A stretch of 37,215 bases of DNA. It comes from Alphaproteobacteria bacterium. GTDB taxonomy: Bacteria > Pseudomonadota > Alphaproteobacteria > SP197. Below the pieces are notes generated by a model. It did not search any database and was not told where the DNA came from. It saw only the letters and a list, made by a program, of their open reading frames with translations. A program made the position numbers and the translations under genes. Numbering within the stretch: position 1 is the first letter of the stretch; each line of letters begins with the position of its first letter. Of this stretch, positions 6,520-31,304 are shown piece after piece. The stretch lies in the NCBI GenBank assembly GCA_028277285.1, contig JANQGO010000201.1, positions 1-37,215 on the forward strand, in the 5' to 3' direction.

Positions 6520-7356
6520 ATGACGGTGCGGACGGTGCTCCGTGACGACAATCGAAGGCAGCAGACGCTTGCCGCACTCAGGGCATGTCTTGCCGAGGTC
6601 GAGACGACGGCGCAGCCGGGGCCGTCGGCCGGGCGCTGGACCTTCGGTGATCCGACGCTCGATGACACGCTTGCCGGCGATGTTCTGCTGCGCGACCGCT
6701 TGCACGAGGTGAGGCCAGCGGCGTTTGGCGATGGTGCGGCGGCGGCCGGGTTCGCCGTGGCGCTTTGTTTGCGTCTGCAGCGTGCTAGTGGGCCGGGCTT
6801 TGTCCTGTGGTGTGACCGCTTCGCCGGCATGCGCCAGGCGGGCGCGCTTTATGGGCCGGGCCTCGTCGATCTGGGCCTTGATCCCGGCCGCCTGATCCAT
6901 GTCGCGCTGCGCCGTGACATCGACGTCTTCTGGGCGATGGAGGAGGGGTTGAGGAGCCGCGCGCCCGTCGCCGTGGTCGGCGATGTCGCCGAAGCGGACC
7001 TGACCGCCAGCCGCCGCCTCAGTCTCGCCGCCCAGGAAACCGGCATCACACCGTTTCTGATCCGCGGCGCCGCCGATCAAAGCGCCAGCGCCGCATGGAC
7101 CCGCTGGGCGGTCGCCGCGGCGCCAAGCGCGGCGGACCAATTTGAACCTCGTGCGCCCGGACGCACGCGATGGCAGATCGACTTGTTGCGCTCGCGCGCC
7201 GGGGCGCGGCCGCAAAGCTGGACCCTGGAATGGTCGCATGAGACGCATCGTTTCGCTGTGGCTGCCGGCCTGGCCGATCGAACGGTGGCGCCGCGCGCTT
7301 CAGCGGCGCCGGGCGTTGTCGCGCCCTTCGTCGCCGGCCAGCGCCGGACCGCGTAA
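6520..7356 (+). CDS. imuA: ImuA, RecA-like SOS mutagenesis accessory protein
   Basis: 278 residues. The sequence follows the ImuA pattern: 'WTFGDPTLDDTLAG' and 'LHEVRPAAFGDGAAAAGFAVAL' near the start, 'LYGPGLVDLGLDPGRLIHVALRRDIDVFWAMEEGLRS' in the middle, then 'SRRLSLAAQETG' and 'AAWTRWAVAAAPS', ending with 'WTLEWSHETHRFAVAAGLADR'. ImuA is a RecA-like protein of the translesion mutasome that acts with ImuB and DnaE2 at damaged replication forks. GAGGG lies five bases before the ATG. The last 119 bases overlap the start of imuB in another frame, so the two are probably translationally coupled. The position as first gene of a LexA-type regulated operon supports the name. Confidence 0.9.
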   Translation: MTVRTVLRDDNRRQQTLAALRACLAEVETTAQPGPSAGRWTFGDPTLDDTLAGDVLLRDRLHEVRPAAFGDGAAAAGFAVALCLRLQRASGPGFVLWCDRFAGMRQAGALYGPGLVDLGLDPGRLIHVALRRDIDVFWAMEEGLRSRAPVAVVGDVAEADLTASRRLSLAAQETGITPFLIRGAADQSASAAWTRWAVAAAPSAADQFEPRAPGRTRWQIDLLRSRAGARPQSWTLEWSHETHRFAVAAGLADRTVAPRASAAPGVVAPFVAGQRRTA

Positions 7357-8836
7357 GCCCTTTGTCCTCGTCCGCAAACAGGCTCAGGGGCTCAGACTCT
7401 ACGCGGTCAACGCGCCGGCTGCCGGCGACGGCCTTACGCCCGGCATGGCGCTCACCGACGCGCGCGCCATCGTGCCGGATCTGGCGAGCGCACCCGCCGA
7501 TCTTGCCGCCGACCGTCGCGCTCTCGAAAAGCTGGCGCGCTGGTGCAGCCGCTACAGCCCCTGGGTCGCGGTCGATCTCAGCCATGACGAGGAGCCCGAT
7601 GGCATCTGGCTCGACACCACCGGCTGCGATCACCTGTTCGGCGGCGAGGCGGCCATGCTGCAGGACATGAACGAGCGTCTGGCAAAGGCGGATATCACCG
7701 CCCGCCTGGGCCTCGCCGCGACGCCGGGCGCGGCCTGGGCCGTCGCGCGCCATGGCGACGAAGCCATCGTGCGGGGCGATGACAGCAAGGGGACATTGGC
7801 GCGGCTGCCGGTCGAAGGCCTGCGTCTCTCCCACGATGTCAGCGCCGATCTCCGCCGCTTCGGGCTGCGCCGTATCGGCGACCTCTACGATCTCCCGCGC
7901 GACGCGCTCTATCGCCGTTTCGATGCCCGCGACAGCGCGCAGGCGGTGATGCGCCGCCTGGATCAGGCGCTCGGCAAGGTCGAGGAACCGATCGTGCCCA
8001 TGGCCATGCCGCCGGTCCTGCGCGTCAGCCGCAATTGCGCCGAGCCGATCTTCGACCTGCCGGTCATCGAACGGGTCTTGGCTGACTTGCTGGAGGATCT
8101 GATGCCGGCGCTGGAGGAACGCCAGCAGGGCGCTCGCACGCTTGTCTTCACCGCCTACCGGGTCGACGGCACGGCGTTCCCGCTGACCGTTGCCACCTCG
8201 GTGCCGAGCCGCGACACCCGCCATTTCCAGCGCCTCTTCGCCGAGCGTCTGGAAGAGATCGATCCCGGCTTCGGTATCGATCTTCTGGTGCTCGGCGCCG
8301 CCCGTGTGGAGACGATGACGCCGCGCCAGAAGGCATGGGCGACGAGCGGTCAGGCCCTGCCGGAGCGTCAATCCCTGGCGCCGCTGATCGACCGCCTGAT
8401 CAACCGTTTCGGGCCGGACCGGGTGCTGTGGCGCGAGCCCCATGAAAGTCATGTCCCCGAGCGCGCCGAGCGGCGGCGTTCGGCTTTGGCCGGACCGCCA
8501 TGCGAGACCGCGGTTTGGCAGACGAACCGGCCGCCGCGCCCCTTACGCCTGTTCGACCAGCCCGAAAGCGTCGAAGTCATGGCCGAGGTGCCGGACGGTC
8601 CGCCGATCCGTTTCCGCTGGCGCCGTCAGATCCACGACGTCAAACGCGCCGAGGGGCCCGAACGCATCGGGCCGGAATGGTGGGCGAAGAACGAGCCCGG
8701 CGCGCGCGGCACCCGCGACTATTTCCGGGTCGAGGACGAAACCGGCCGGCGTTTCTGGCTCTACCGCGACGGTCTTTATGAGGGCGAAGCGCGGGAAGGG
8801 CCGCCGCGCTGGTATGTGCACGGGCTGTTTGCCTGA
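7238..8836 (+). CDS. imuB: ImuB, Y-family polymerase-like mutasome hub
   Basis: 532 residues, starting at the ATG of 'MRRIVSLWLPAWPIERWRR'. A longer upstream frame exists but reads through imuA without any family likeness. The fold follows Y-family DNA polymerases (palm/finger, HhH-like, little finger). However, the first strand has no Asp where active polymerases carry a catalytic one ('SLWLPAWP'), as in other ImuB proteins, so it is probably not a polymerase itself. ImuB links the sliding clamp, ImuA and DnaE2; 'RPLRLFDQPE' near residue 437 could be the clamp-binding peptide. The C-terminus 'RDYFRVEDETGRRFWLYRDG' is family-typical. dnaE2 begins eight bases after the stop. Confidence 0.9.
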   Translation: MRRIVSLWLPAWPIERWRRALQRRRALSRPSSPASAGPRKPFVLVRKQAQGLRLYAVNAPAAGDGLTPGMALTDARAIVPDLASAPADLAADRRALEKLARWCSRYSPWVAVDLSHDEEPDGIWLDTTGCDHLFGGEAAMLQDMNERLAKADITARLGLAATPGAAWAVARHGDEAIVRGDDSKGTLARLPVEGLRLSHDVSADLRRFGLRRIGDLYDLPRDALYRRFDARDSAQAVMRRLDQALGKVEEPIVPMAMPPVLRVSRNCAEPIFDLPVIERVLADLLEDLMPALEERQQGARTLVFTAYRVDGTAFPLTVATSVPSRDTRHFQRLFAERLEEIDPGFGIDLLVLGAARVETMTPRQKAWATSGQALPERQSLAPLIDRLINRFGPDRVLWREPHESHVPERAERRRSALAGPPCETAVWQTNRPPRPLRLFDQPESVEVMAEVPDGPPIRFRWRRQIHDVKRAEGPERIGPEWWAKNEPGARGTRDYFRVEDETGRRFWLYRDGLYEGEAREGPPRWYVHGLFA

Positions 8837-8844
8837 GGCCGCCC

Positions 8845-11800
8845 ATGGACTACGCCGAACTTCAGGTTACCAGCAACTTCTCCTTCCTGCGCGGCGCCTC
8901 GCATCCGGAGGAACTGGTGGTGCGCGCTAAGGAACTGGGCATGACCGCCATCGCGGTCACCGACCGCAACACGCTGGCCGGCGTGGTGCGTGCCCACACC
9001 GCGGCTAAGAAACACAACATGAAGTTCATCGTCGGCTGCCGCCTCGACCTGATGGACGGGACGGCGCTGCTTTGTTACCCGACCGACCGGGCGGCCTATG
9101 GCCGGCTTTGCCGCCTGTTGAGCCTGGGCAAGACCCGCGCGCCCAAGGGCGAATGCCATCTGACCCTGGAAGATGTCGTGGCCCATGCGGAAGGTCAGAT
9201 CTTCATGATCGTGCCGCCGGAAAGCTGGTCCCAGGACGATTTCATCGCCCAGGCCCGCGATATCGCCGAGCGGCTGGGCGAACCCTGTTATCTCGCCGCC
9301 AGCAAACTCTATCGCGGCGACGACCGGGCGCGCATCGCACGCTTGACCCAGGTCGCGGAAGCCGCCGGCACGCCCCTGGTCGCGACCGGCGACATCCACT
9401 ATCACGTGCCCCGGCGCCGGCCGCTGCAGGATGTCGTCACCTGTATCCGCGAGGGCTGCTGCATCTACGATGCCGGTCACCGGCTGCACGCCAACGCGGA
9501 GCGGCATTTGAAGGCGCCGGAGGAAGTGGCGCGCCTGTTCGGCCTGTGGCCTGACGCGCTGGCCCGCACCAACGAGATCGTCGCACGCTGCCAGTTCTCC
9601 CTCGATGAACTGCGCTACAACTACCCCGACGAGCCGGTGCCGCCGGGCAAGACGCCGCAAGCCCATCTGGAAGACCTCACCTGGAAGGGTGCGGCAACCC
9701 GTTATCCCGATGGCGTGCCCGACAAGATACGCGCGACCCTGGAGAAGGAACTGGCGCTGATCGACCAGCTCAACTACGCGCCCTATTTCCTCACCGTCTA
9801 CGACATCGTCTATTGGGCGCGCAGCCAGGAGATCCTGTGCCAGGGCAGGGGATCGGCGGCCAACTCGGCGGTCTGCTATTGCCTCTTTATCACCTCGGTC
9901 AATCCGGACGAGGTCGATCTCTTGTTCGAGCGCTTCATCTCGGCCTCGCGCAACGAACCGCCGGATATCGATGTTGACTTCGAGCACGAGCGGCGCGAGG
10001 AGGTGATGCAGTACATCTATGAGCGCTACGGGCGCCAGCGCGCCGGCATCGCCGCGACCGTCATCAGCTATCGCGCCCGAAGCGCGATCCGCGAGGTGAC
10101 GAAGGTGATGGGGCTCACCGAAGACGTCCAGAACGCGCTCGCCAGCACGATCTGGGGCTGGTCCGATGACGGCATCCCCGACGAGCATGTGCGCGAAGCT
10201 GGTCTGAACCCGGCCGACCCGATCCTGAAACGCGCCATCGCGCTCGCCACCGAGCTCACCGGGTTTCCGCGTCACCTTTCCCAGCATGTCGGCGGCTTCG
10301 TCCTGACCCAGGACCCGCTCAGCGAGGTCGTGCCGATCGGCAACGCGGCCATGAAGGACCGTACCTTCGTCGAATGGGACAAGGACGACTTGAGCGCGCT
10401 CAACATCCTGAAGATCGATGCGCTGGCGCTCGGCATGCTGACCTGCATCCGCAAGTGTTTCGATCTGATGGCGAAACACCGTGGCGTCGACCGCAACCTC
10501 GCCAGCTTCTTCCCGATGGACGACACCGCGACCTACGACATGCTGTGCCGGGCCGATTCACTCGGCGTTTTCCAGGTCGAGAGCCGGGCGCAGATGAACA
10601 TGCTGCCGCGCTTGAAACCGCGCATCTTCTACGACCTCGTCATCGAGGTCGCGATTGTCCGTCCCGGACCGATCCAGGGCGACATGGTGCATCCTTACCT
10701 GCGCCGTCGCGACGGTATCGAGGCGGTGACGTACCCCGCGCCCGATCCCGCCCATGGCGACGCCGACGAATTGCGCCGCGTGCTCGGCAAGACCATGGGC
10801 GTGCCGATCTTCCAGGAACAGGCCATGCGCATCGCCATCGACGCCGCCAAGTTCACCGGCGACGAAGCCAACGAACTGCGCCACGCCATGGCGACTTTCC
10901 GCCGGCGCGGCACCATCGAGACGCTGGAAGAAAAGATGATCGGGCGCATGATCGAGCGTGGCTACGAACCTGAATTCGCCCAGCGTTGTTTCGATCAGAT
11001 CAAAGGGTTCGGCGAATACGGTTTCCCGGAAAGCCACGCGGCGAGCTTCGCACTGCTCGTCTATGTCTCCTCCTGGATCAAATGCCACGAACCCGCGGTC
11101 TTCTGCTGCGGCCTCTTGAACGCGCAGCCCATGGGTTTCTACGCGCCCGCCCAGATCGTGCGCGACGCGCGCGAGCACGGTGTCACCGTGCGCCATGTCG
11201 ATATCAACAAGAGCGATTGGGACAACACGATCGAGCCGTGTCCGGACTCAAAAGGCGGCCTGGCCGTGCGCCTGGGTTTCCGCCAGATCAAGGGCATGAG
11301 CCAGGAGGCGGCGGAGAAGATCATGGCAGCGCGCGGGTCGGGCTATGCGGATGTCGACGAACTGCATGCGCGCGCCGGCGTGCCGCGTTCGGTGCTGGAG
11401 CGCCTGGCCGCCGCCGATGCGTTCGGCTCGCTCAAGATCGACCGGCGTCAGGCGCTGTGGCGGGTGAAGGCGCTGCCCGACACGGTGGCGCTGCCGTTGT
11501 TCCTGGCCGCCGACACCCGCGATGCCGGACCGGAGGCCGAGGTGGCCTTGCCGGCCATGGCGCTTTCTGAACACGTGGTCGATGATTACCAGAGCCTGCG
11601 GTTGTCCCTGAAGGCGCACCCGCTCGCCTTTCTGCGCGAGGATTTCGCCAGGCGCGGCGTGATACCGACCTCCGATCTCAGAGAACTCAAGAACGGCGCG
11701 CGGGTGATGGTCGCCGGCATCATCATCGTGCGCCAGCGCCCGGGCAGCGCCAAGGGCGTTGTCTTCATGACCATGGAGGACGAGGCCGGCATCGCCAACG

Positions 11801-12168
11801 CGGTGGTCTGGCCGAAGGTGAAGGAAACGTACCGCAAGGTCGTGATGGGCAGCCGCTTGGTCATGGTGAAGGGCCGCATCCAGCGCCACGAGGACATCAT
11901 CCACGTGGTCGCCGATCACCTGGAAGACTGGTCGGTCGAGCTGCTGCGGTTGTCGGAGCAGGGCATCGATCTGAAACCGGCATTGGCCCATGCCGACGAG
12001 GTCCGGCGGCCGGGCAAGGATCCCTATCAGACCGAACTGCTGCCGCCGCCGGCCTATCAGATCCGCAAGACCAGGAAATCGGACGCCGCGCGCCTGCCGC
12101 CCTTCACCCCGGGCCGCCACCCCCGTTCGCTGCGCGACCTCGTGCCGAAGTCACGCGACTTTCACTAG
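8845..12168 (+). CDS. dnaE2: Error-prone DNA polymerase DnaE2 (ImuC)
   Basis: 1107 residues, a normal length for DnaE2. It opens with a PHP domain ('YAELQVTSNFSFLRGASHPEEL'), continues with the C-family polymerase core and ends with an OB-fold ('ARVMVAGIIIVRQRPGSAKG', about residue 952 on). The catalytic motif 'PPDIDVDFEHERREE' gives D376 and D378, and 'LKIDALALGM' gives D525, the three metal-binding aspartates of bacterial replicases. The segment 'GFGEYGFPESHAASFALLVY' is strongly conserved in DnaE2. The enzyme copies past lesions during the SOS response, at the cost of mutations, as the catalytic partner of ImuA and ImuB. It ends seven bases from a convergent minus-strand gene. Confidence 0.95.
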   Translation: MDYAELQVTSNFSFLRGASHPEELVVRAKELGMTAIAVTDRNTLAGVVRAHTAAKKHNMKFIVGCRLDLMDGTALLCYPTDRAAYGRLCRLLSLGKTRAPKGECHLTLEDVVAHAEGQIFMIVPPESWSQDDFIAQARDIAERLGEPCYLAASKLYRGDDRARIARLTQVAEAAGTPLVATGDIHYHVPRRRPLQDVVTCIREGCCIYDAGHRLHANAERHLKAPEEVARLFGLWPDALARTNEIVARCQFSLDELRYNYPDEPVPPGKTPQAHLEDLTWKGAATRYPDGVPDKIRATLEKELALIDQLNYAPYFLTVYDIVYWARSQEILCQGRGSAANSAVCYCLFITSVNPDEVDLLFERFISASRNEPPDIDVDFEHERREEVMQYIYERYGRQRAGIAATVISYRARSAIREVTKVMGLTEDVQNALASTIWGWSDDGIPDEHVREAGLNPADPILKRAIALATELTGFPRHLSQHVGGFVLTQDPLSEVVPIGNAAMKDRTFVEWDKDDLSALNILKIDALALGMLTCIRKCFDLMAKHRGVDRNLASFFPMDDTATYDMLCRADSLGVFQVESRAQMNMLPRLKPRIFYDLVIEVAIVRPGPIQGDMVHPYLRRRDGIEAVTYPAPDPAHGDADELRRVLGKTMGVPIFQEQAMRIAIDAAKFTGDEANELRHAMATFRRRGTIETLEEKMIGRMIERGYEPEFAQRCFDQIKGFGEYGFPESHAASFALLVYVSSWIKCHEPAVFCCGLLNAQPMGFYAPAQIVRDAREHGVTVRHVDINKSDWDNTIEPCPDSKGGLAVRLGFRQIKGMSQEAAEKIMAARGSGYADVDELHARAGVPRSVLERLAAADAFGSLKIDRRQALWRVKALPDTVALPLFLAADTRDAGPEAEVALPAMALSEHVVDDYQSLRLSLKAHPLAFLREDFARRGVIPTSDLRELKNGARVMVAGIIIVRQRPGSAKGVVFMTMEDEAGIANAVVWPKVKETYRKVVMGSRLVMVKGRIQRHEDIIHVVADHLEDWSVELLRLSEQGIDLKPALAHADEVRRPGKDPYQTELLPPPAYQIRKTRKSDAARLPPFTPGRHPRSLRDLVPKSRDFH

Positions 12169-21758: not shown

Positions 21759-22940
21759 ATGGCAAACCTGGAACCGCGCTTTGACCTCAGCGAATACGCC
21801 GAACGCCTGGCCAAGGTTCGCCGCGCCATGGAACGTCAGGGCGTCGAACTTCTGATCGTCACCGATCCGTCGAACATGGCGTGGCTGACCGGTTATGACG
21901 GCTGGTCGTTCTACGTTCACCAATGCGTGCTGGTGCCGGGCGACGGCTTGCCCATCTGGTATGGCCGCGGCATGGACGGCCAAGGTGCCAAGCGTACCGT
22001 CTATATGGATGACGATCACATCATCGGTTACCCCGACAACTACGTTCAGTCGACCGAGCGCCATCCGATGGACCATCTGTCGGCGGTTATCGAGGACAGG
22101 GGCTGGGGTACGGCCGCCATCGGCGTCGAGATGGACAACTACTATTTTTCCGCCGCCTGTTACCGGTCTTTGACCGACAACCTCGCCAACGCGACGTTCG
22201 TCGACGCAACCGGCGTGGTGAACTGGCAGCGCGCGGTCAAGTCGAAGACCGAGCTTGCCTACATGAAGACTGCCGCCAGCATTGTCGATGCCATGCATGC
22301 GCGGATCCTGGAGCGCATGGAGCCCGGCATGCGCAAGAACGATCTGGTCGCCGATATCTACGAGGCCGGCATTCGCGGCGTCGACGGTCACGGAGGCGAC
22401 TATCCGGCCATTGTCCCCATGCTGCCGACCGGTCCCGATGCCTCAGCGCCCCATCTGACCTGGGACGACAAGCCGCTGGAGGCCGGCGCCGGGACGTTTT
22501 TCGAGATCGCCGGCTGTTACCATCGTTATCAATGTCCGCTGTCGCGCACGGTCTATCTGGGCAAACCGCCGCAGGCGTTCCTGGATGCCGAGAAAGCGAT
22601 GCTGGAGGGTATCGAGGCGGCGCTGGAAGCAGCGCGCACAGGCAACACCTGCGAAATGGTGGAGGCGGCATGGCGCCAGGCGATCGCGCGCCACGGCCTG
22701 GAGAAGGAAAGCCGCTGCGGCTACGCCATCGGCCTGAGTTATCCGCCGGACTGGGGCGAACGCACCATGAGTTTCCGGCCGGGCGACAGGTCGGAGCTTA
22801 AGACCGACATGACCTTTCACTTCATGCCGGCGCTATGGTTCGACGACTGGGGCATCGAGATCAGCGAGAGCATTCGCATCGACGAAGGCGGCGGCGAACC
22901 GCTTTGTCGGACACCGCGCAGGCTCTTCATCAAGTCGTAA
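21759..22940 (+). CDS. M24 creatinase-like hydrolase, probable ectoine hydrolase
   Basis: 393 residues from the ATG at 21759, with GAGGGGG seven bases upstream. It has an N-terminal creatinase domain ('NMAWLTGYDGWSFYVHQCVLV', 'HIIGYPDNYVQSTERHPMD') and a C-terminal pita-bread domain. Metallo-members carry Asp, Asp and His ligands; here these positions read E249 ('FFEIAG'), P260 ('YQCPLSRT') and Y322 ('CGYAIGLSYPPDWGE'), so it is of the metal-poor, creatinase-like kind. The segments 'GYDGWSFYVHQ' and 'GYPPDWGERTMS' are those I associate with ectoine hydrolase DoeA/EutD, which opens the ectoine ring. DoeB (the deacetylase) is not in the window, so creatinase-type or another amide substrate remains possible. 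It converges on the Rieske gene. Confidence 0.72.
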   Translation: MANLEPRFDLSEYAERLAKVRRAMERQGVELLIVTDPSNMAWLTGYDGWSFYVHQCVLVPGDGLPIWYGRGMDGQGAKRTVYMDDDHIIGYPDNYVQSTERHPMDHLSAVIEDRGWGTAAIGVEMDNYYFSAACYRSLTDNLANATFVDATGVVNWQRAVKSKTELAYMKTAASIVDAMHARILERMEPGMRKNDLVADIYEAGIRGVDGHGGDYPAIVPMLPTGPDASAPHLTWDDKPLEAGAGTFFEIAGCYHRYQCPLSRTVYLGKPPQAFLDAEKAMLEGIEAALEAARTGNTCEMVEAAWRQAIARHGLEKESRCGYAIGLSYPPDWGERTMSFRPGDRSELKTDMTFHFMPALWFDDWGIEISESIRIDEGGGEPLCRTPRRLFIKS

Positions 22941-22949
22941 AGACAGGCA

Positions 22950-24125
22950 TCACAGCATCGCCTTGACGATCTGGCGCGACAGCTCCAGCGGCGCCTCGTC
23001 CCAATAGGGCGAAAACCGGCCGCCGTCGTAGCCCGGCGAGAGCCTGCCGCGTTGCAGGCGGGCGATCAGGCCAAGGTCTTCCTTGTTCAGATCGTGCCAG
23101 GTATCGAACACCGCCTGTCGCTGGGTAGCGAACTGCTCGCCCTTCGCCGCGTCGCCGATCAAGTAGATGTCGATGCGTTCGCGCGACGTGGCGGGCGTCA
23201 GGGGCGTCACGATAAAGGTCGCGATGTGGTCAGGGTAGACCTCGAAGGCGAAGTTCGGCACCGCGACAAACCACAAGCCGCGCGATGCGAGTTCTTCGGT
23301 GAGGTTCGGAAAGTAGGGTAGGCCGACACCGCGGCCCTCTTCGGGTTCGCGGAACTGATAGAAATTCCAGAGGACATGGCCGTCGCATTTAGACGGCTCG
23401 CGCTCGGCCATGGGCACGAAGCTGTGCAAGCGCGGATGAGCGGCGAAGACGTGATAGGGCTCGATATAGTTCTCCAGCGCGAACTTCCAGTTGCACGCGA
23501 CGTCGAAGTCGAGCGAACCGGCATAGCGGGCGGCGCCGATGTCGTAGCCGTCGCAGCGTCTGGCGATCGGCGCGATGAAGTCGTCGAAGGAGCCGGCCTG
23601 GCCGTCGATGTTGACGAAGATCCAGTGGTGCCAGACCGCCGTCGCCACCGGCTTCAGACCCGGCCCGTTGCCATCGTCGCCGACGTCGTGTTTGTCGCCG
23701 CCATGAAAGTGCGGCCGTGTTCTGAGCGTACCGGTAAGGTCATAGGCCCAGGCATGATAGGGGCAGGTCAGGACCGTCAGACCGCAGGCTTTTTCTTCCA
23801 GAAGCGTCGCGCCGCGATGGCGGCAGACATTGTGAAAGCCGCGCACGACACCATCCTTGTCGCGCACCAGAAGAACCGGCATGCCGCCGATATCGATGGG
23901 CACCGCATCGCCGGGGTTGGGCAGATCGTGCGCATAGCCGGCAAAACACCAGGTGCGGGCGAAAAGCCGCTCGTTCTCCAGCCGCTGCCAAGCCTCGCTG
24001 GTATAGGCGACGTTCGGCAGCCCGGACGCCTCGGCAAGCGGCAGGTCGAGACGACGGAGCGCCTCGTGTCCCAGCATGGCCTCGACGTCACCCTCGGCAG
24101 ATAAACCCTCAGATGACACACCCAT
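22950..24125 (-). CDS. Rieske non-heme iron oxygenase, alpha subunit
   Basis: 391 residues. The Rieske [2Fe-2S] motif is C-x-H-x17-C-x2-H with C101, H103, C121 and H124. The catalytic domain has 'NWKFALENYIEPYHVFAAHP', giving mononuclear iron ligands H225 and H230; a third acidic ligand probably lies in 'NKEDLGLIARLQRG' near residue 351. The arrangement resembles oxygenases acting on quaternary amines (choline, glycine betaine, carnitine, stachydrine) more than those acting on bare aromatics, which is an inference from pattern. No reductase gene lies beside it, so electrons must come from elsewhere. GGGAG sits six bases before the ATG. It is divergent from the OYE-like gene. Confidence 0.87.
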   Translation of the reverse strand: MGVSSEGLSAEGDVEAMLGHEALRRLDLPLAEASGLPNVAYTSEAWQRLENERLFARTWCFAGYAHDLPNPGDAVPIDIGGMPVLLVRDKDGVVRGFHNVCRHRGATLLEEKACGLTVLTCPYHAWAYDLTGTLRTRPHFHGGDKHDVGDDGNGPGLKPVATAVWHHWIFVNIDGQAGSFDDFIAPIARRCDGYDIGAARYAGSLDFDVACNWKFALENYIEPYHVFAAHPRLHSFVPMAEREPSKCDGHVLWNFYQFREPEEGRGVGLPYFPNLTEELASRGLWFVAVPNFAFEVYPDHIATFIVTPLTPATSRERIDIYLIGDAAKGEQFATQRQAVFDTWHDLNKEDLGLIARLQRGRLSPGYDGGRFSPYWDEAPLELSRQIVKAML

Positions 24126-24181
24126 CTCGATCTCCCAATCCCTCGGCTATCCAACGCCCTGCGGATAAACCCGGAACCACA

Positions 24182-24209
24182 GTTATACGATTTGTAAAAA
24201 AATCAGCAA
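24182..24209 (-). promoter_or_regulatory. Candidate promoter of the Rieske oxygenase gene
   Basis: On the minus strand TTGCTG (24209-24204) is followed, after 16 bases, by TATAAC (24187-24182), a near-consensus -10. Transcription would start about 50 bases before the ATG at 24125. The region is AT-rich in a GC-rich genome and holds a short inverted repeat, GATTT and AAATC, between the two hexamers. That repeat could be an operator shared with the divergent OYE-like gene; the XRE-cupin protein encoded nearby is the natural candidate binder. Confidence 0.42.
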
Positions 24210-24279
24210 TATGTTAACCCGCCGATCGTGTCGATTTGAGCTCGATTCCCGGCCACTTGCGCTAACCGGTGTGATCTCC

Positions 24280-26241
24280 ATGAGCAGCTTTCCCCAACTC
24301 TTTTCGCCGGTCGACCTGGGCGGCCTGACAATCAAGAACCGTCTGTTCTTTCCGCCCCACGGCACGTCACTGGTCGAGGACGGCAAGGTCGGTGACAGGC
24401 TGGTCGCCTATCACGAGGCGCGTGCCAAGGGCGGCGTCGGCCTGGTGATTATCGAGGGGATGTCGATGCATCCCTCGTTCGACAATCCGTCGAAATACAT
24501 CTCCGGCGGCGATCCCGACGTGGTGCCGGGGTTCTCGCGGCTGGCGCGGACCCTGCACCGCTACGACTGCAAGCTGTTCGGGCAGCTGTTTCATCCCGGC
24601 GCGTCGAACCGCGCCTCGGCGGACGGGTCGAAACGCGCGGCGTTCGCGCCGTCGGACGTGCCCCATGACCGCTATGGCCTGATCCCCTATCCGGCCCCGG
24701 CCGAGTGGATCTGGGACGTCATCGAGTCCTATGGCCGGGCCGGCGGGCACATGCGCGAGGCCGGTTTCGACGGTGTCGAGGTGCTGGCCAGCATGGGCTA
24801 TCTGGTCGCCCAGTTCCTCAACCCGCGCACCAACCTGCGCGAGGACGCGTTCGGCGGCAGCTTCGAGAACCGCATGCGGTTCCTTTACGAGGTGCTGAAG
24901 GCCATTCGCGCGAAGACCGATGACGAGACGGTCATCGGCGTGCGCGTTTCCGCCGACGAGATGGCGGAAGAGGGGCTCCATGTCGACGAGACGCTGGCGA
25001 TCTGCGAGGCGCTCGATGCCAGCGGTCTGGTCGACTACGTCAACGTCATTGGCGGTTACTCGGCGGCGGCATCGGGATGGCTGCACGTCTTTCCGTCGAT
25101 GTCTGTCCCGCACGGCTTTTGGGCGCCGCAGGCCGCCGCCATTCGCCAGCGCATCGCGAAGCCCGTCCTCGTCGGCGGCCGTATCAACCAACCGCAAATG
25201 GCCGAAGAGGTGGTCGCCCAGGGCCAGGCGGACATGGTCGGCGTGGTGCGCGCGTTGATCTGCGATCCCGACTTCCCGGTCAAGGCCCAGAAGGGAAAGT
25301 TCGACGACATCCGCGCCTGCATCGGCTGCAACCAGGCGTGCGTCGGTCACCGGCTTTCCTACTACCCGGTTTCCTGCATCCAGCATCCGGAGACGGGGCG
25401 CGAGACGCAGTTCGCCCACGAGAAGTCGCCGGCGCGCGAGCCGAAGAGGATCCTTGTCATCGGCGGTGGCCCGGGCGGCATGAAGGCCGCCGCCATTGCC
25501 GCCGAACGCGGCCACGACGTGACGCTGGTCGAAAAGGACGGGCAGCTTGGCGGCCAGGCGCGTCTTGCCCAGATGTTGCCGGGACGTGAGGAGTTCGGCG
25601 GCATCATCACCAATTTCGAGCGCGAGATGGAACGCGCCGCCGTCAAGGTTGAACGCAACGTGGAAGCCGATGTGGTGTTCGTGCGCGAACGCGCGCCCGA
25701 CGCGGTCGTCATCGCGACCGGTGCCGTGCCGCGACGACCTGAGCTGGAGGGTGCCGACGGCGCCCATGTGGTCGACGCGTGGTCCGTCATTCGCGGCGAG
25801 GCCAATGTCGGCGGCTCCGTCGTTATCGCCGATTGGGCGTGCGATTGGATCGGGATCGGCGTCGCCGAAAAGCTCGCGCGCGACGGCTGCCGGGTTCGCC
25901 TGGCGGTCAACGGCATTGCGCCGGGCGCGCAGATCAACGAGATCGTCAGGGATCAGGGGATTGGTGATCTGCATAAGCTGGGTGTCGAGGTCATCACCCA
26001 TGCCGGCTTGTTCGGCGCAGACGACTCAAGCGTTTACTTCCAGCACATCATCAACCGTGAGCCGATCATTTGCGACGACGTCGATACGCTCGTCCTGGCG
26101 CAGGGCCATAACCGGATCGCCGGTCTGGTGGGGGATCTGGCTGCTATCGGCATGCCCGCGACGCTGATCGGCGATGCGCTGAGCCCGCGGACCGCGGAAG
26201 AGGCCGTGCTGGAAGGCCTCAAAGCCGCCATGGCGCTGTGA
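24280..26241 (+). CDS. OYE-like FMN/4Fe-4S/FAD oxidoreductase (demethylase-like)
   Basis: 653 residues from the ATG at 24280; the frame runs further upstream without family likeness. The N-terminal half is an old-yellow-enzyme TIM barrel ('LFSPVDLGGLTIKNRLFFPPHG', 'FGGSFENRMRF'). The cluster motif 'CIGCNQACVGHRLSYYPVSC' supplies the four cysteines of a [4Fe-4S] centre, and the C-terminal half is a two-Rossmann FAD/NAD(P) module ('RILVIGGGPGGMKAAAIAAERGH'). This is the architecture of trimethylamine dehydrogenase, 2,4-dienoyl-CoA reductase and the dimethylglycine demethylase subunit DgcA. Next to a quaternary-amine type Rieske oxygenase, oxidative N-demethylation is the likeliest role, though this is inferred. 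The regulator gene follows 15 bases later. Confidence 0.85.
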   Translation: MSSFPQLFSPVDLGGLTIKNRLFFPPHGTSLVEDGKVGDRLVAYHEARAKGGVGLVIIEGMSMHPSFDNPSKYISGGDPDVVPGFSRLARTLHRYDCKLFGQLFHPGASNRASADGSKRAAFAPSDVPHDRYGLIPYPAPAEWIWDVIESYGRAGGHMREAGFDGVEVLASMGYLVAQFLNPRTNLREDAFGGSFENRMRFLYEVLKAIRAKTDDETVIGVRVSADEMAEEGLHVDETLAICEALDASGLVDYVNVIGGYSAAASGWLHVFPSMSVPHGFWAPQAAAIRQRIAKPVLVGGRINQPQMAEEVVAQGQADMVGVVRALICDPDFPVKAQKGKFDDIRACIGCNQACVGHRLSYYPVSCIQHPETGRETQFAHEKSPAREPKRILVIGGGPGGMKAAAIAAERGHDVTLVEKDGQLGGQARLAQMLPGREEFGGIITNFEREMERAAVKVERNVEADVVFVRERAPDAVVIATGAVPRRPELEGADGAHVVDAWSVIRGEANVGGSVVIADWACDWIGIGVAEKLARDGCRVRLAVNGIAPGAQINEIVRDQGIGDLHKLGVEVITHAGLFGADDSSVYFQHIINREPIICDDVDTLVLAQGHNRIAGLVGDLAAIGMPATLIGDALSPRTAEEAVLEGLKAAMAL

Positions 26242-26256
26242 CGGGAGCGTAGCCGC

Positions 26257-26931
26257 ATGGCCAAACCCGACATCGACGCCAAACAGGCCGCGGCGAAGCC
26301 CGATCAAACGGACGCCATCGCGCAACGGCTTGGCAACGACATCCACGGCCTTCGCAAGGCGCGCGGCATGACGCTGGCGGACCTTGCCCAGCGCACGGGC
26401 CGCTCGGTCGGTTTTCTCAGCCAGATCGAGAATGGGCTCAAGAAACCATCGGTCGGCACGTTGCAAAGCATAAGCGACGCGCTTGGCATCACGATCGGCT
26501 GGTTCTTCCAGAACGACATGGCCGATGAGGATGGCGAACGCCGGTACATCGTGCGTCACGACCAGCGCCGGCGGCTCTCCTATTCCAGCCTCGCGACATC
26601 CGATTATCTGGGCATGAACGACTATCTGGTCTCGCCGACCCTGGCGGGGCAGCACGCGATGGTGCTCAGCGAGTTCGAACCCGGCGCGTCATCGGGTGAC
26701 GACACCTATGGTCACGAGGGCGAGGAGTCGGGCTTCCTTCTGTCCGGCGTTCTCGACGTTCAGATCGGCGACGACGTCTATCGTTTGGAGCCCGGCGACA
26801 GTTTCCTGTTCGAGAGCCATCTGCCGCACCGCTATCACAATCCCGGCGACGAGGTTGCCGTCGTGTTGATGACCTTGCTGCCGGTCGCGCTGCGCTACGG
26901 TCACTCCATCGACGACGGCGAAGAGACGTAA
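26257..26931 (+). CDS. XRE-family regulator with C-terminal cupin domain
   Basis: 224 residues. The helix-turn-helix lies at about residues 22-80 ('IHGLRKARGMTLADLAQRTGRSVGFLSQIENGLKKPSVGTLQSISDALG'-like order, seen as separate helices). A cupin sensor domain fills about 140-215 ('GHEGEESGFLLSGVLDVQIGDD', 'LEPGDSFLFESHLPHRYHNPG'). XRE-cupin proteins commonly control neighbouring genes for amine, amino acid or polyamine use and bind a small ligand in the cupin barrel. It is 15 bases downstream of the OYE-like gene and probably co-transcribed, so it likely controls this locus and itself. A GGGAG site precedes the ATG. The first 20 residues are charged, low complexity and poorly conserved. Confidence 0.87.
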   Translation: MAKPDIDAKQAAAKPDQTDAIAQRLGNDIHGLRKARGMTLADLAQRTGRSVGFLSQIENGLKKPSVGTLQSISDALGITIGWFFQNDMADEDGERRYIVRHDQRRRLSYSSLATSDYLGMNDYLVSPTLAGQHAMVLSEFEPGASSGDDTYGHEGEESGFLLSGVLDVQIGDDVYRLEPGDSFLFESHLPHRYHNPGDEVAVVLMTLLPVALRYGHSIDDGEET

Positions 26932-29179: not shown

Positions 29180-30430
29180 TCAGCCGCCCGGCGCCATCTC
29201 CGGTAGACCGATAACGCCGTCGCCGGCCAATTGATCGATCTCCGCATCGCCGTAGCCCAGGCCCTTGAGCAGGTGGCGCGTGTGTTCACCATAAAGCGCC
29301 GCCGGCGCCTTCGGTCCGCCCGGCGTCTCGGAGAACTTCACCGGCAGCCCCAGCGTCTGCACCGGACCGGCGGTCGGATGATCGAGTGAGACGATCATCT
29401 CGCGGGCCAGCGCCTGTTCGTCCTCATGCATGGCGGGAATGGTGTTGAGCGGTCCTGCCGGAACGCCGGCATCGTCGAGAGCGCGCAGCCATTCGGCCGT
29501 CGTGCGCGTGCGAAAGATATCGTCCAGCACGTCGACGAGCTCGGACAGATGGTCCATGCGCGCCTTGTTGGTGCCGAACAGCGCCTCGTCGCGCAGGCGG
29601 TCGTCATCGATCATGGCGACAAAGCGTTGCCATGTCGGGCCGTTCGCCGCGCCCAAGGTGAGCCAGCCGTCCTTTGTCGGAAACGCCTGATAGGGCGCCG
29701 ATAGCGGATGGCCGCTGCCCAGGGGGCCGGGAACCTCGTCGGTGGAGAACGCGATCGCCGAATGCCAATAGGTGTGAATGATGCCCGCTTCGAACAGGGA
29801 CGTGTCGACCATCTGGCCTTCACCGGTGCGGTCGCGGTGGTGCAGGGCGGCGCACACGCCCATGGCCAAGAGGATGCCGGCGGTGGTGTCGGTCATCGGC
29901 GGGCCGGGTTTGACCGGCGGGCGGCCGTGACCTTCGCCGGTGATACTCATCAGCCCCGCCATGCCTTGGGTGATCAGGTCGAATCCGGCGCGATCCGCAT
30001 AGGGTCCGGAACGCCCGAACCCGGACACCGCGCCATAGATCAGGCCGGGGTGTTTCTGATGCAGGCTCTCCCAACCGAAACCCAGGCGGTCCATGACGCC
30101 GGGCCGGTAGTTCTCCAGCACCACGTCGGCGTCTGCGATCAACCGGCCCAGGACCTCGCGCCCCTTTTCCTGTTTCAAATTCAACGGCAGGCTTTTCTTG
30201 TTGCGGTTGACGATCATGTGCGGCGCCGAAACACCGTTGATGTGGTAGGGATCGGTGTCGGTGCGGGCTTCGTCGGCCTCGAACGGGACCCGCTCGATCT
30301 TGATAACGTCCGCGCCCATATCGGCCAGCATCAGCGCGCAGACCGGTCCGGCCAGGATGTGGGTCAGGTCGACGACACGGACGCCTTGCAGCGGTCCGTA
30401 GCCGGTCTTGGATGCTTGCATGGCCGCCAT
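29180..30430 (-). CDS. CaiB/BaiF family III CoA-transferase
   Basis: 416 residues. The start has 'LQGVRVVDLTHILAGPVCALMLADMGADVIKIE', the CoA-binding N-terminus of family III CoA-transferases; 'NRNKKSLPLNLKQEKG' and 'NYRPGVMDRLGFG' follow. D151 in 'RAGFDLITQGMAGLMS' is the residue that forms the aspartyl-CoA anhydride in this family. Length is normal and all landmarks are intact. The enzyme moves CoA between two carboxylic acids; carnitine, formyl, succinyl and bile-acid versions exist and I cannot tell which applies. Its ATG shares one base with the TGA of the crotonase gene (TGATG), so the two are translationally coupled and probably act in one pathway. Confidence 0.9.
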   Translation of the reverse strand: MAAMQASKTGYGPLQGVRVVDLTHILAGPVCALMLADMGADVIKIERVPFEADEARTDTDPYHINGVSAPHMIVNRNKKSLPLNLKQEKGREVLGRLIADADVVLENYRPGVMDRLGFGWESLHQKHPGLIYGAVSGFGRSGPYADRAGFDLITQGMAGLMSITGEGHGRPPVKPGPPMTDTTAGILLAMGVCAALHHRDRTGEGQMVDTSLFEAGIIHTYWHSAIAFSTDEVPGPLGSGHPLSAPYQAFPTKDGWLTLGAANGPTWQRFVAMIDDDRLRDEALFGTNKARMDHLSELVDVLDDIFRTRTTAEWLRALDDAGVPAGPLNTIPAMHEDEQALAREMIVSLDHPTAGPVQTLGLPVKFSETPGGPKAPAALYGEHTRHLLKGLGYGDAEIDQLAGDGVIGLPEMAPGG

Positions 30431-31206
30431 CAGCGCCCCTTAAAGACTGGTTTCTCTTTGGCGGCGAAGGCTTCGCGCCCGATCCGGAAGTCCTCGGTCT
30501 CAAAGCACAGATAGGCCTCGTCGCGTTCCGCATCGCTCAGCGGTGTGGGATCCATGAGGCGATTGACGAACTTTTTGTGCCAGCGCGCCGAGAGCGGTGC
30601 TTTCTCCGCGATGTTGCGGGCGGTCTCGTACGTCACTGCTTCGACCTCGTCGTCATCGACGACCCGGTTGACCAGACCCATTTCGAGGACCCTCTCTGCG
30701 CCGATCATCTCGCCTTCCAACAGGAGCTCCAGGGCGCCTGCCGGACCGATCAGTCGGGCCAGCGCGGCGATCTCGTGGTGGCTATAGGTGATGCCCAGCT
30801 TCCCCGCCGGCACCGCGAAGCGCGCCGACCGCCCGGCGATCCTCAGATCGCAATAGGGGATCAGGCCCAGGCTGCCGCCGACGCAGTAGCCTTTGATCAT
30901 GGCGATCACCGGATGACGGCAGCTTGCCAGCCCGTCGCCCCAATTGGCGTCGTAGCTGCGTGCCTGGTCGGCGTTCGATCGGGCCTCGCCGAATTCCTTG
31001 ATGTCAGCGCCGACACCGAAAGCACGGTCGCCGGCGCCGCGCAACACGATGCAGCGCACACCGTCGTCGGCCGACAGGTCGTGAAAGACTTCGGACAAAC
31101 CACGCGCGGTCACCTGATCGAGGGCGTTGAGCCTCTCGGGGCGGTTGACGGTCACGGTGACGATGGTGTCGTCGCGCGCGACGATCAGACTTTCGGGCAC
31201 AGACAT
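30430..31206 (-). CDS. Crotonase-fold protein (enoyl-CoA hydratase-like)
   Basis: 258 residues from the ATG at 31206 (GGA-type ribosome site); the frame continues 20 codons upstream without likeness. The fold is clear: 'VNRPERLNALD', oxyanion-hole segment 'RAFGVGADIKEF', 'IKGYCVGGSLGLIPYCDLRIAG' and 'RFAVPAGKLGITY'. In true enoyl-CoA hydratases two glutamates (144 and 164 in the rat enzyme) act in catalysis; by alignment these are G114 and A134 here. A classic hydration is thus unlikely, although a 'PAxLG' subfamily without them is common. It may be an isomerase, hydrolase or lyase acting on an acyl-CoA. It is coupled to the CoA-transferase and lies about 100 bases after the ATP-grasp gene. 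Confidence 0.85.
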   Translation of the reverse strand: MSVPESLIVARDDTIVTVTVNRPERLNALDQVTARGLSEVFHDLSADDGVRCIVLRGAGDRAFGVGADIKEFGEARSNADQARSYDANWGDGLASCRHPVIAMIKGYCVGGSLGLIPYCDLRIAGRSARFAVPAGKLGITYSHHEIAALARLIGPAGALELLLEGEMIGAERVLEMGLVNRVVDDDEVEAVTYETARNIAEKAPLSARWHKKFVNRLMDPTPLSDAERDEAYLCFETEDFRIGREAFAAKEKPVFKGR

Positions 31207-31304
31207 GGCTCGGTTCCAGCTAACGGGCGGGACCGCAGTCTGGACCGAGGATTGTATTACCGGCAAGACAAAGCGGGGCTCGTCCTAAAACAGGTGAATC
31301 CGCT

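Follow-up and report, generated by a model that had tools for sequence, protein, structure and literature searches.

For many betaine-like osmolytes, which are a large marine source of nitrogen and carbon, the responsible enzymes are not known. Among the described systems, DgcA and DgcB, the latter being the DUF3483 protein, act on dimethylglycine. Group V Rieske oxygenases include carnitine monooxygenase CntA, the stachydrine demethylase Stc2 and GbcA, and in some or most Group V enzymes a Cys-x-x-Cys pair lies beside the mononuclear iron (PMC10952381). In ectoine catabolism, EutD requires EutE for efficient degradation, and most clusters have EnuR or AsnC regulators (PMC5924519; PMC8739950). 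We compared these systems with a locus on contig JANQGO010000201.1 of the genome of a marine-type alphaproteobacterium (GCA_028277285.1). The stretch analysed comprises 37,215 nucleotides and is referred to as the window. The locus contains an M24-family protein, a Rieske oxygenase, an old yellow enzyme (OYE)/4Fe-4S/FAD flavoprotein and an XRE-cupin regulator.

The four genes are two separate things and not one locus: a conserved Rieske–OYE(–XRE-cupin) module and a genus-specific ectoine hydrolase gene (DoeA). We give somewhat better than even chances to two neighbouring catabolic functions, that is, a genuine ectoine hydrolase and, adjacent to it, a module for the N-demethylation of a betaine-like osmolyte. 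The features are as follows:

21759..22940, forward strand: DoeA/EutD ectoine hydrolase, M24 family (393 aa; TIGR02993, alignment to 6twk, tree)
22950..24125, reverse strand: Rieske non-haem iron oxygenase alpha subunit (391 aa; Pfam Rieske and Ring_hydroxyl_A)
24126..24273, no strand: divergent promoter region shared by the Rieske and OYE genes (divergent arrangement, gaps of ~100–255 bp in 11 genomes)
24274..26241, forward strand: three-domain OYE/4Fe-4S/FAD-NAD(P) flavoprotein of a distinct family (655 aa; Pfam Oxidored_FMN and Pyr_redox_2)
26257..26931, forward strand: XRE-cupin (PuuR-like) regulator (224 aa; HTH_3 and Cupin_2)

Arrangement and conservation of the genes

All four genes were uninterrupted open reading frames (ORFs) in a check of the window, and an alternative upstream ATG at 24211 is possible for the OYE gene. 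The ORFs and the Pfam and TIGR families confirmed the initial annotation in two respects: the genes lie together, and each family-level identification was correct (TIGR02993; Rieske and Ring_hydroxyl_A; Oxidored_FMN and Pyr_redox_2; HTH_3 and Cupin_2). The DoeA and Rieske genes were convergent (~10 bp apart), the Rieske and OYE genes were divergent (148 bp apart), and the XRE-cupin gene started 15 bp past the OYE gene. One operon for all four genes was therefore rejected. All four genes are under purifying selection between the genus's two species: the ratio of nonsynonymous to synonymous substitutions (dN/dS) was 0.06 for DoeA and OYE alike, 0.10 for XRE and 0.12 for Rieske.

The Rieske protein was searched against 60 relatives, and the matching regions were mapped. 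The family set consisted of 16 genomes, with the window's own genome (G000) included. The divergent Rieske–OYE pair was found in 11 of the 16 (G000, G001, G003, G005, G008, G010, G011, G012, G013, G014 and G015), and G009 had a decayed copy. The XRE-cupin gene stood behind the OYE gene in G000, G001, G005, G013 and G015. DoeA adjoined the Rieske gene only in G000 and G001, which represent the window's genus, and not in the other nine pair-bearing genomes; in a few of these relatives its absence refers to the immediate flank, as in G011, where the contig ends ~0.2 kb past the Rieske gene. Hence, the conserved neighbourhood that the initial annotation proposed to look for exists for the Rieske–OYE pair (11 family genomes) and not for the adjacency of DoeA.

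Outside the family, the pair also occurred in gammaproteobacterial metagenome genomes (L013, L014) with a different gene order. The gene beyond the Rieske gene varied by genus and coded for a 2OG-Fe(II) oxygenase (L010, G013, G015), a class II aldolase (L015, G005) or an oligopeptide-type (Opp-type) ABC transporter (L011, L012). An AT-rich GTAAAAAAAT element was visible in the Rieske–OYE intergenic region of several genomes. A comparison across genomes proved no operator in this region, and a search for one common to it and the DoeA promoter found none. The element upstream of DoeA resembled a terminator hairpin.

The ectoine hydrolase

Against TIGR02993, the equivalog model for ectoine hydrolase, the M24 protein scored 695.6 bits (cut-off 613); no other gene product of its genome exceeded this cut-off. 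It aligned over its full length with the solved DoeA 6twk (E 4e-154). In a quick tree, the two fell into a 7-row clade (SH-aLRT 99) together with the DoeA of G043, G054, G055 and G037. Relatives of the window DoeA had DoeB genes as neighbours rather than Rieske or OYE genes; in G043 and G054, they directly adjoined a DoeB above its cut-off. By sequence, the M24 protein is a true ectoine hydrolase of the ordinary kind, encoded at an unusual position that is specific to the genus. It probably belongs to a pathway separate from the Rieske–OYE module.

As the initial annotation had remarked, neither DoeB nor a GbcB-type reductase was present in the window. In whole-genome searches, neither G000 nor G001 had a DoeB above the cut-off. 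DoeB-like genes were located on C157, C46 and C62 of the window's genome, and C157 carried a DoeA-like/DoeB-like pair followed by a zinc-type alcohol dehydrogenase. No EnuR (MocR) or AsnC regulator was seen among the larger window genes scanned; a dedicated EnuR search was not run.

The initial annotation had joined ring or amide opening to N-demethylation in a single route, in which a DoeA-like opening step and the Rieske and OYE enzymes would act on a methylated ectoine-like solute. Both species of the genus do retain the adjacency of DoeA, other M24 subfamilies have hydrolases near the module in L011, L013 and L015, and in G012, and partly in G006 and G009, a DoeA-like/DoeB-like pair is found at one locus with a different Rieske enzyme. 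Such a route is nevertheless improbable, as DoeA groups with true ectoine hydrolases whose relatives adjoin DoeB, runs convergently to the Rieske gene and does not accompany the module in nine other genomes, where the pair is conserved without it. With this, a false lead falls away: DoeA lies next to the module but is probably not its partner.

Ectoine synthesis was also rejected as an explanation. The EctC-like genes of the window's genome are double-domain proteins on another contig, C241. At this place (L183:3693-5425), a pair of neighbouring genes, both coding for a protein with a double ectoine-synthase (EctC) domain, stood beside two AstE/AspA-type hydrolases.

A further locus, L165 (G012), combined another Rieske oxygenase with an enzyme near cis-3-hydroxy-L-proline dehydratase, and parts of it were found in L163 (G006) and L171 (G009). 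All three had a DoeA-like gene. L165 additionally contained a DoeB-like gene, a choline dehydrogenase and a TMAO/DMSO-reductase-like gene.

The Rieske oxygenase

The Rieske protein had both alpha-subunit domains (Rieske and Ring_hydroxyl_A). The Rieske-centre ligands C101/H103/C121/H124 were present in the alignment, as were the iron site H225/H230/D350 and the bridging Glu. The latter is given by the motif ENYIEPYH (compare CntA E205) and is an Asp in several related clades. The best PDB sequences in phmmer were CntA and stachydrine demethylase. With the AlphaFold2 model (mean pLDDT 86), Foldseek ranks 1–18 were CntA, stachydrine demethylase (Stc2) and 3n0q. The quaternary-amine leaning that the initial annotation had seen in this protein was thus borne out. 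Both Foldseek and phmmer put CntA and Stc2 ahead of aromatic oxygenases, which favours a betaine-like or N-methyl substrate.

The same ranking bears on an aromatic route, in which the Rieske enzyme would hydroxylate a ring and an OYE of the 2-naphthoyl-CoA reductase (NCR) type would then reduce the ring or enone. The Rieske superfamily is common to aromatic dioxygenases, and the nearest structure of the OYE protein is NCR. However, the fold matches to aromatic oxygenases were orders of magnitude weaker than those to CntA and Stc2, no beta subunit, ferredoxin or ring-cleavage gene was seen nearby, and a paralogous cluster contains betaine-binding transport genes. We regard ring hydroxylation as improbable, too.

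The sole FAD_binding_6 (FNR-type) reductase match in the whole genome was on C387. Its best models were Hcr, flavohemoprotein, PaaE and GbcB, all under the cut-off. The genome had 11 Rieske matches at E ≤1e-60 versus this one FNR-type reductase, which is probably the natural candidate for a shared electron donor of the Rieske protein. The imbalance, the constant pairing of Rieske and OYE and the lack of a reductase gene beside the module in the loci examined could also mean that the OYE protein itself is the electron donor and not a substrate enzyme. This is very improbable: OYE paralogues exist without a window-type Rieske, a shared reductase accounts equally well for the lacking gene, and we know of no precedent for an electron donor of the OYE class in a Rieske enzyme.

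In Roseovarius sp. ZX-A-9 (L028), a distant relative of the Rieske protein was observed alongside a ProX/ProW betaine transporter and an M24 protein that is DddP-like and scores below the DddP cut-off.

The OYE flavoprotein and its paralogues

The OYE protein consists of an FMN barrel, a four-Cys 4Fe-4S site and an FAD/NAD(P) half. The cysteines C349/C352/C356/C368 were invariant in the family alignment. The nearest solved structures were NCR and the 2,4-dienoyl-CoA reductase FadH. Identity was 34% to the genome's own DgcA, 33% to Escherichia coli FadH, 30% to NCR and 28% to TMADH. In the tree, the family formed its own clade (21 rows, 100/100 support) on the FadH/NCR/DgcA side and away from the TMADH type; the position next to FadH and NCR is sister-side, with long branches and one sequence each of DgcA, FadH and NCR. 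Both the OYE and the Rieske trees contained few characterised references, partly rebuilt from printed alignments, so long-branch placement is weak. At E ≤1e-180, the family was found in 9 of 289 genomes of a class-wide sample.

Two identities of the OYE protein were rejected. The initial annotation had described it as built like DgcA, which was right for the architecture and wrong for the identity: the true DgcA–DgcB pair lies on C277, where the genome's only DgcB (DUF3483) is overlapped by another OYE gene (DgcA), and the window protein falls outside the DgcA clade. No DgcB was present in the window. The TMADH type was rejected by the tree and by PPHG in place of the VPHC motif with its flavin-linking Cys. 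The initial annotation had also named placement with aromatic or dienoyl-CoA enzymes as evidence against its reading. For Rieske, the nearest folds and PDB sequences were CntA and Stc2 and not aromatic enzymes. For OYE, the nearest structures were NCR and FadH; a dienoyl-CoA placement discriminates poorly because DgcA itself branches near FadH.

A methylated-amine context for the OYE protein is suggested by its paralogues near MttB, DAO and OpuAC betaine-binding genes. A paralogue overlapped or adjoined an MttB-superfamily methyltransferase gene in L221 (L221:5254-8762), and others lay beside DAO-type amine oxidase genes in L213 and L217. Class III aminotransferases were near paralogues in L216, with homologues in L218 and L220. 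Moreover, a 20-kb cluster on C76 of the window's own genome (L138, G000) combined several Rieske genes with genes for two OpuAC betaine-binding proteins and three OYEs. Two of these OYEs had 54–57% identity to the window OYE, and the third (11733) was TMADH-like and contained the VPHC motif. L138 also had an XRE-cupin gene (52% identity), window-type Rieskes and two CECYHC-type Rieskes. It is a large betaine-catabolism island in the same genome. The methylated-osmolyte context proposed by the initial annotation is supported by these neighbours.

A CoA-thioester route would give the OYE protein a different role. It would be a FadH/NCR-type enoyl-CoA reductase acting with CaiB and enoyl-CoA hydratase (ECH) on a carnitine- or crotonobetaine-like unsaturated side chain, while the Rieske enzyme would cleave or hydroxylate the quaternary amine. 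The possible accessory genes in the window are:

29180..31266, reverse strand: CaiB-type CoA-transferase and enoyl-CoA hydratase (Pfam CoA_transf_3, ECH_1)

The nearest structures (NCR, FadH), the FadH-like GYL Tyr and the 4Fe-4S cysteines fit this route, and homologues of CaiB and/or ECH (60–67%) flank the module or an OYE paralogue in L010, L025 and L217. On the other hand, the window CaiB and ECH genes lie on the opposite strand and are separated from the module by three genes, CaiB is below the carnitine CoA-transferase cut-off, both are absent from the examined flanks of G003, G005, G008 and L013, and OYE paralogues accompany MttB and DAO enzymes. We consider the CoA-thioester route unlikely but worth keeping in view.

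Loss of Rieske ligands in a sister lineage

A subclade consisting of G008, G010, G011 and G014 shows erosion of the Rieske domain. G011 retained all four ligands; G008 (L131) had lost Cys121, G014 had lost His103 and Cys121, and G010 had lost His103, Cys121 and His124. The His/His/Asp iron ligands were intact in the orthologues of G008, G010 and G014 (loci L131, L130 and L129), and so was the OYE partner in this subclade. Within the subclade, dN/dS was 0.21–0.68 in the Rieske domain versus 0.08–0.18 in the catalytic domain, so that the iron site stays under strong selection. The same ligand variants in L011 and L012 do not count as independent confirmation, as these are seemingly the G008 and G010 assemblies.

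Loss of Rieske ligands with a conserved iron site is the most unexpected observation of our analysis, and we found no paper describing a loss of this kind in the open-licence literature. It could be early pseudogenisation or an altered electron path. In a further reading, which we consider rather unlikely, the window-type oxygenase would be a Rieske-fold iron enzyme with a dispensable [2Fe-2S] cluster, the pair using another electron source or a non-redox iron reaction. The sister lineage offers a natural experiment on the necessity of the Rieske centre.

Proposed function

The best reading of the Rieske–OYE module is an undescribed variant of methylated-osmolyte catabolism. Fold and genomic context point to N-demethylation. 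In a betaine-like osmolyte, the Rieske oxygenase would hydroxylate the carbon of an N-methyl (or N-alkyl) group, with release of formaldehyde or amine. The OYE flavoprotein would then oxidise (demethylate) the tertiary or secondary amine so formed, or an isomer. The XRE-cupin gene probably shares a transcript with OYE, and its protein may respond to substrate or product and regulate the divergent promoter that Rieske and OYE have in common. The Rieske enzyme would receive its electrons from a reductase encoded elsewhere, probably that on C387. DoeA would open ectoine to N-acetyl-diaminobutyrate, which a DoeB-like deacetylase encoded elsewhere, with the pair on C157 as a candidate, would take over.

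Several results weigh against this proposal. The Cys-x-x-Cys pair is not present in the window Rieske, which has EPYHV where Group V has ECYHC. In a quick tree, its family was placed in a group of 41 rows that included neither CntA and Stc2 nor the genomes' own Rieskes of the CECYHC type. The active site of OYE is FadH-like, with the GYL Tyr and no TMADH-type flavin Cys, making an ene-reductase role possible. No transporter adjoins the module within the window. As the neighbours on the Rieske side are genus-dependent, the substrate may differ as well; it may be betaine-like and vary by genus.

Searches of the open-licence literature for homarine, stachydrine and Rieske–OYE clusters turned up no described match. 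With a conserved pair and several paralogues in one genome, we predict a set of demethylation routes in an uncultured lineage.

Elsewhere in the window (7142-12168), a gene for an IMS (ImuB-like) polymerase preceded one for a DnaE-type polymerase III alpha subunit, which is the arrangement of an ImuB–DnaE2 mutagenesis cassette.

Comparison with known systems

Like DoeA/EutD, the ectoine hydrolase gene passes the equivalog cut-off and clades with 6twk. Unlike the DoeA–DoeB and EutD–EutE systems, it is an orphan in the genus, with no DoeB, EnuR or AsnC seen beside it.

The OYE protein shares the OYE/4Fe-4S/FAD architecture and 34% identity with DgcA, but forms a separate clade and has no DgcB near. 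FadH and NCR are its nearest solved structures, and the 4Fe-4S cysteines and the active-site Tyr are conserved. However, identity is only ~30–33%, and the paralogues lie near methylamine-type enzymes and not near fatty-acid genes. The regulator shares the combination of HTH and cupin with PuuR-like XRE-cupin proteins, but did not reach the PuuR cut-off (63 bits versus 211) and is linked to an OYE gene.

The window Rieske resembles the Group V oxygenases CntA, Stc2 and GbcA in the nearest fold, the nearest PDB sequences and the bridging Glu. It differs in its low identity (23–25%), the missing Cys-x-x-Cys and the separate clade. Moreover, it has no adjacent reductase gene, and the GbcA cut-off was not reached. 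It appears to be a new subfamily near the quaternary-ammonium oxygenases and is predicted to work like a Group V enzyme.

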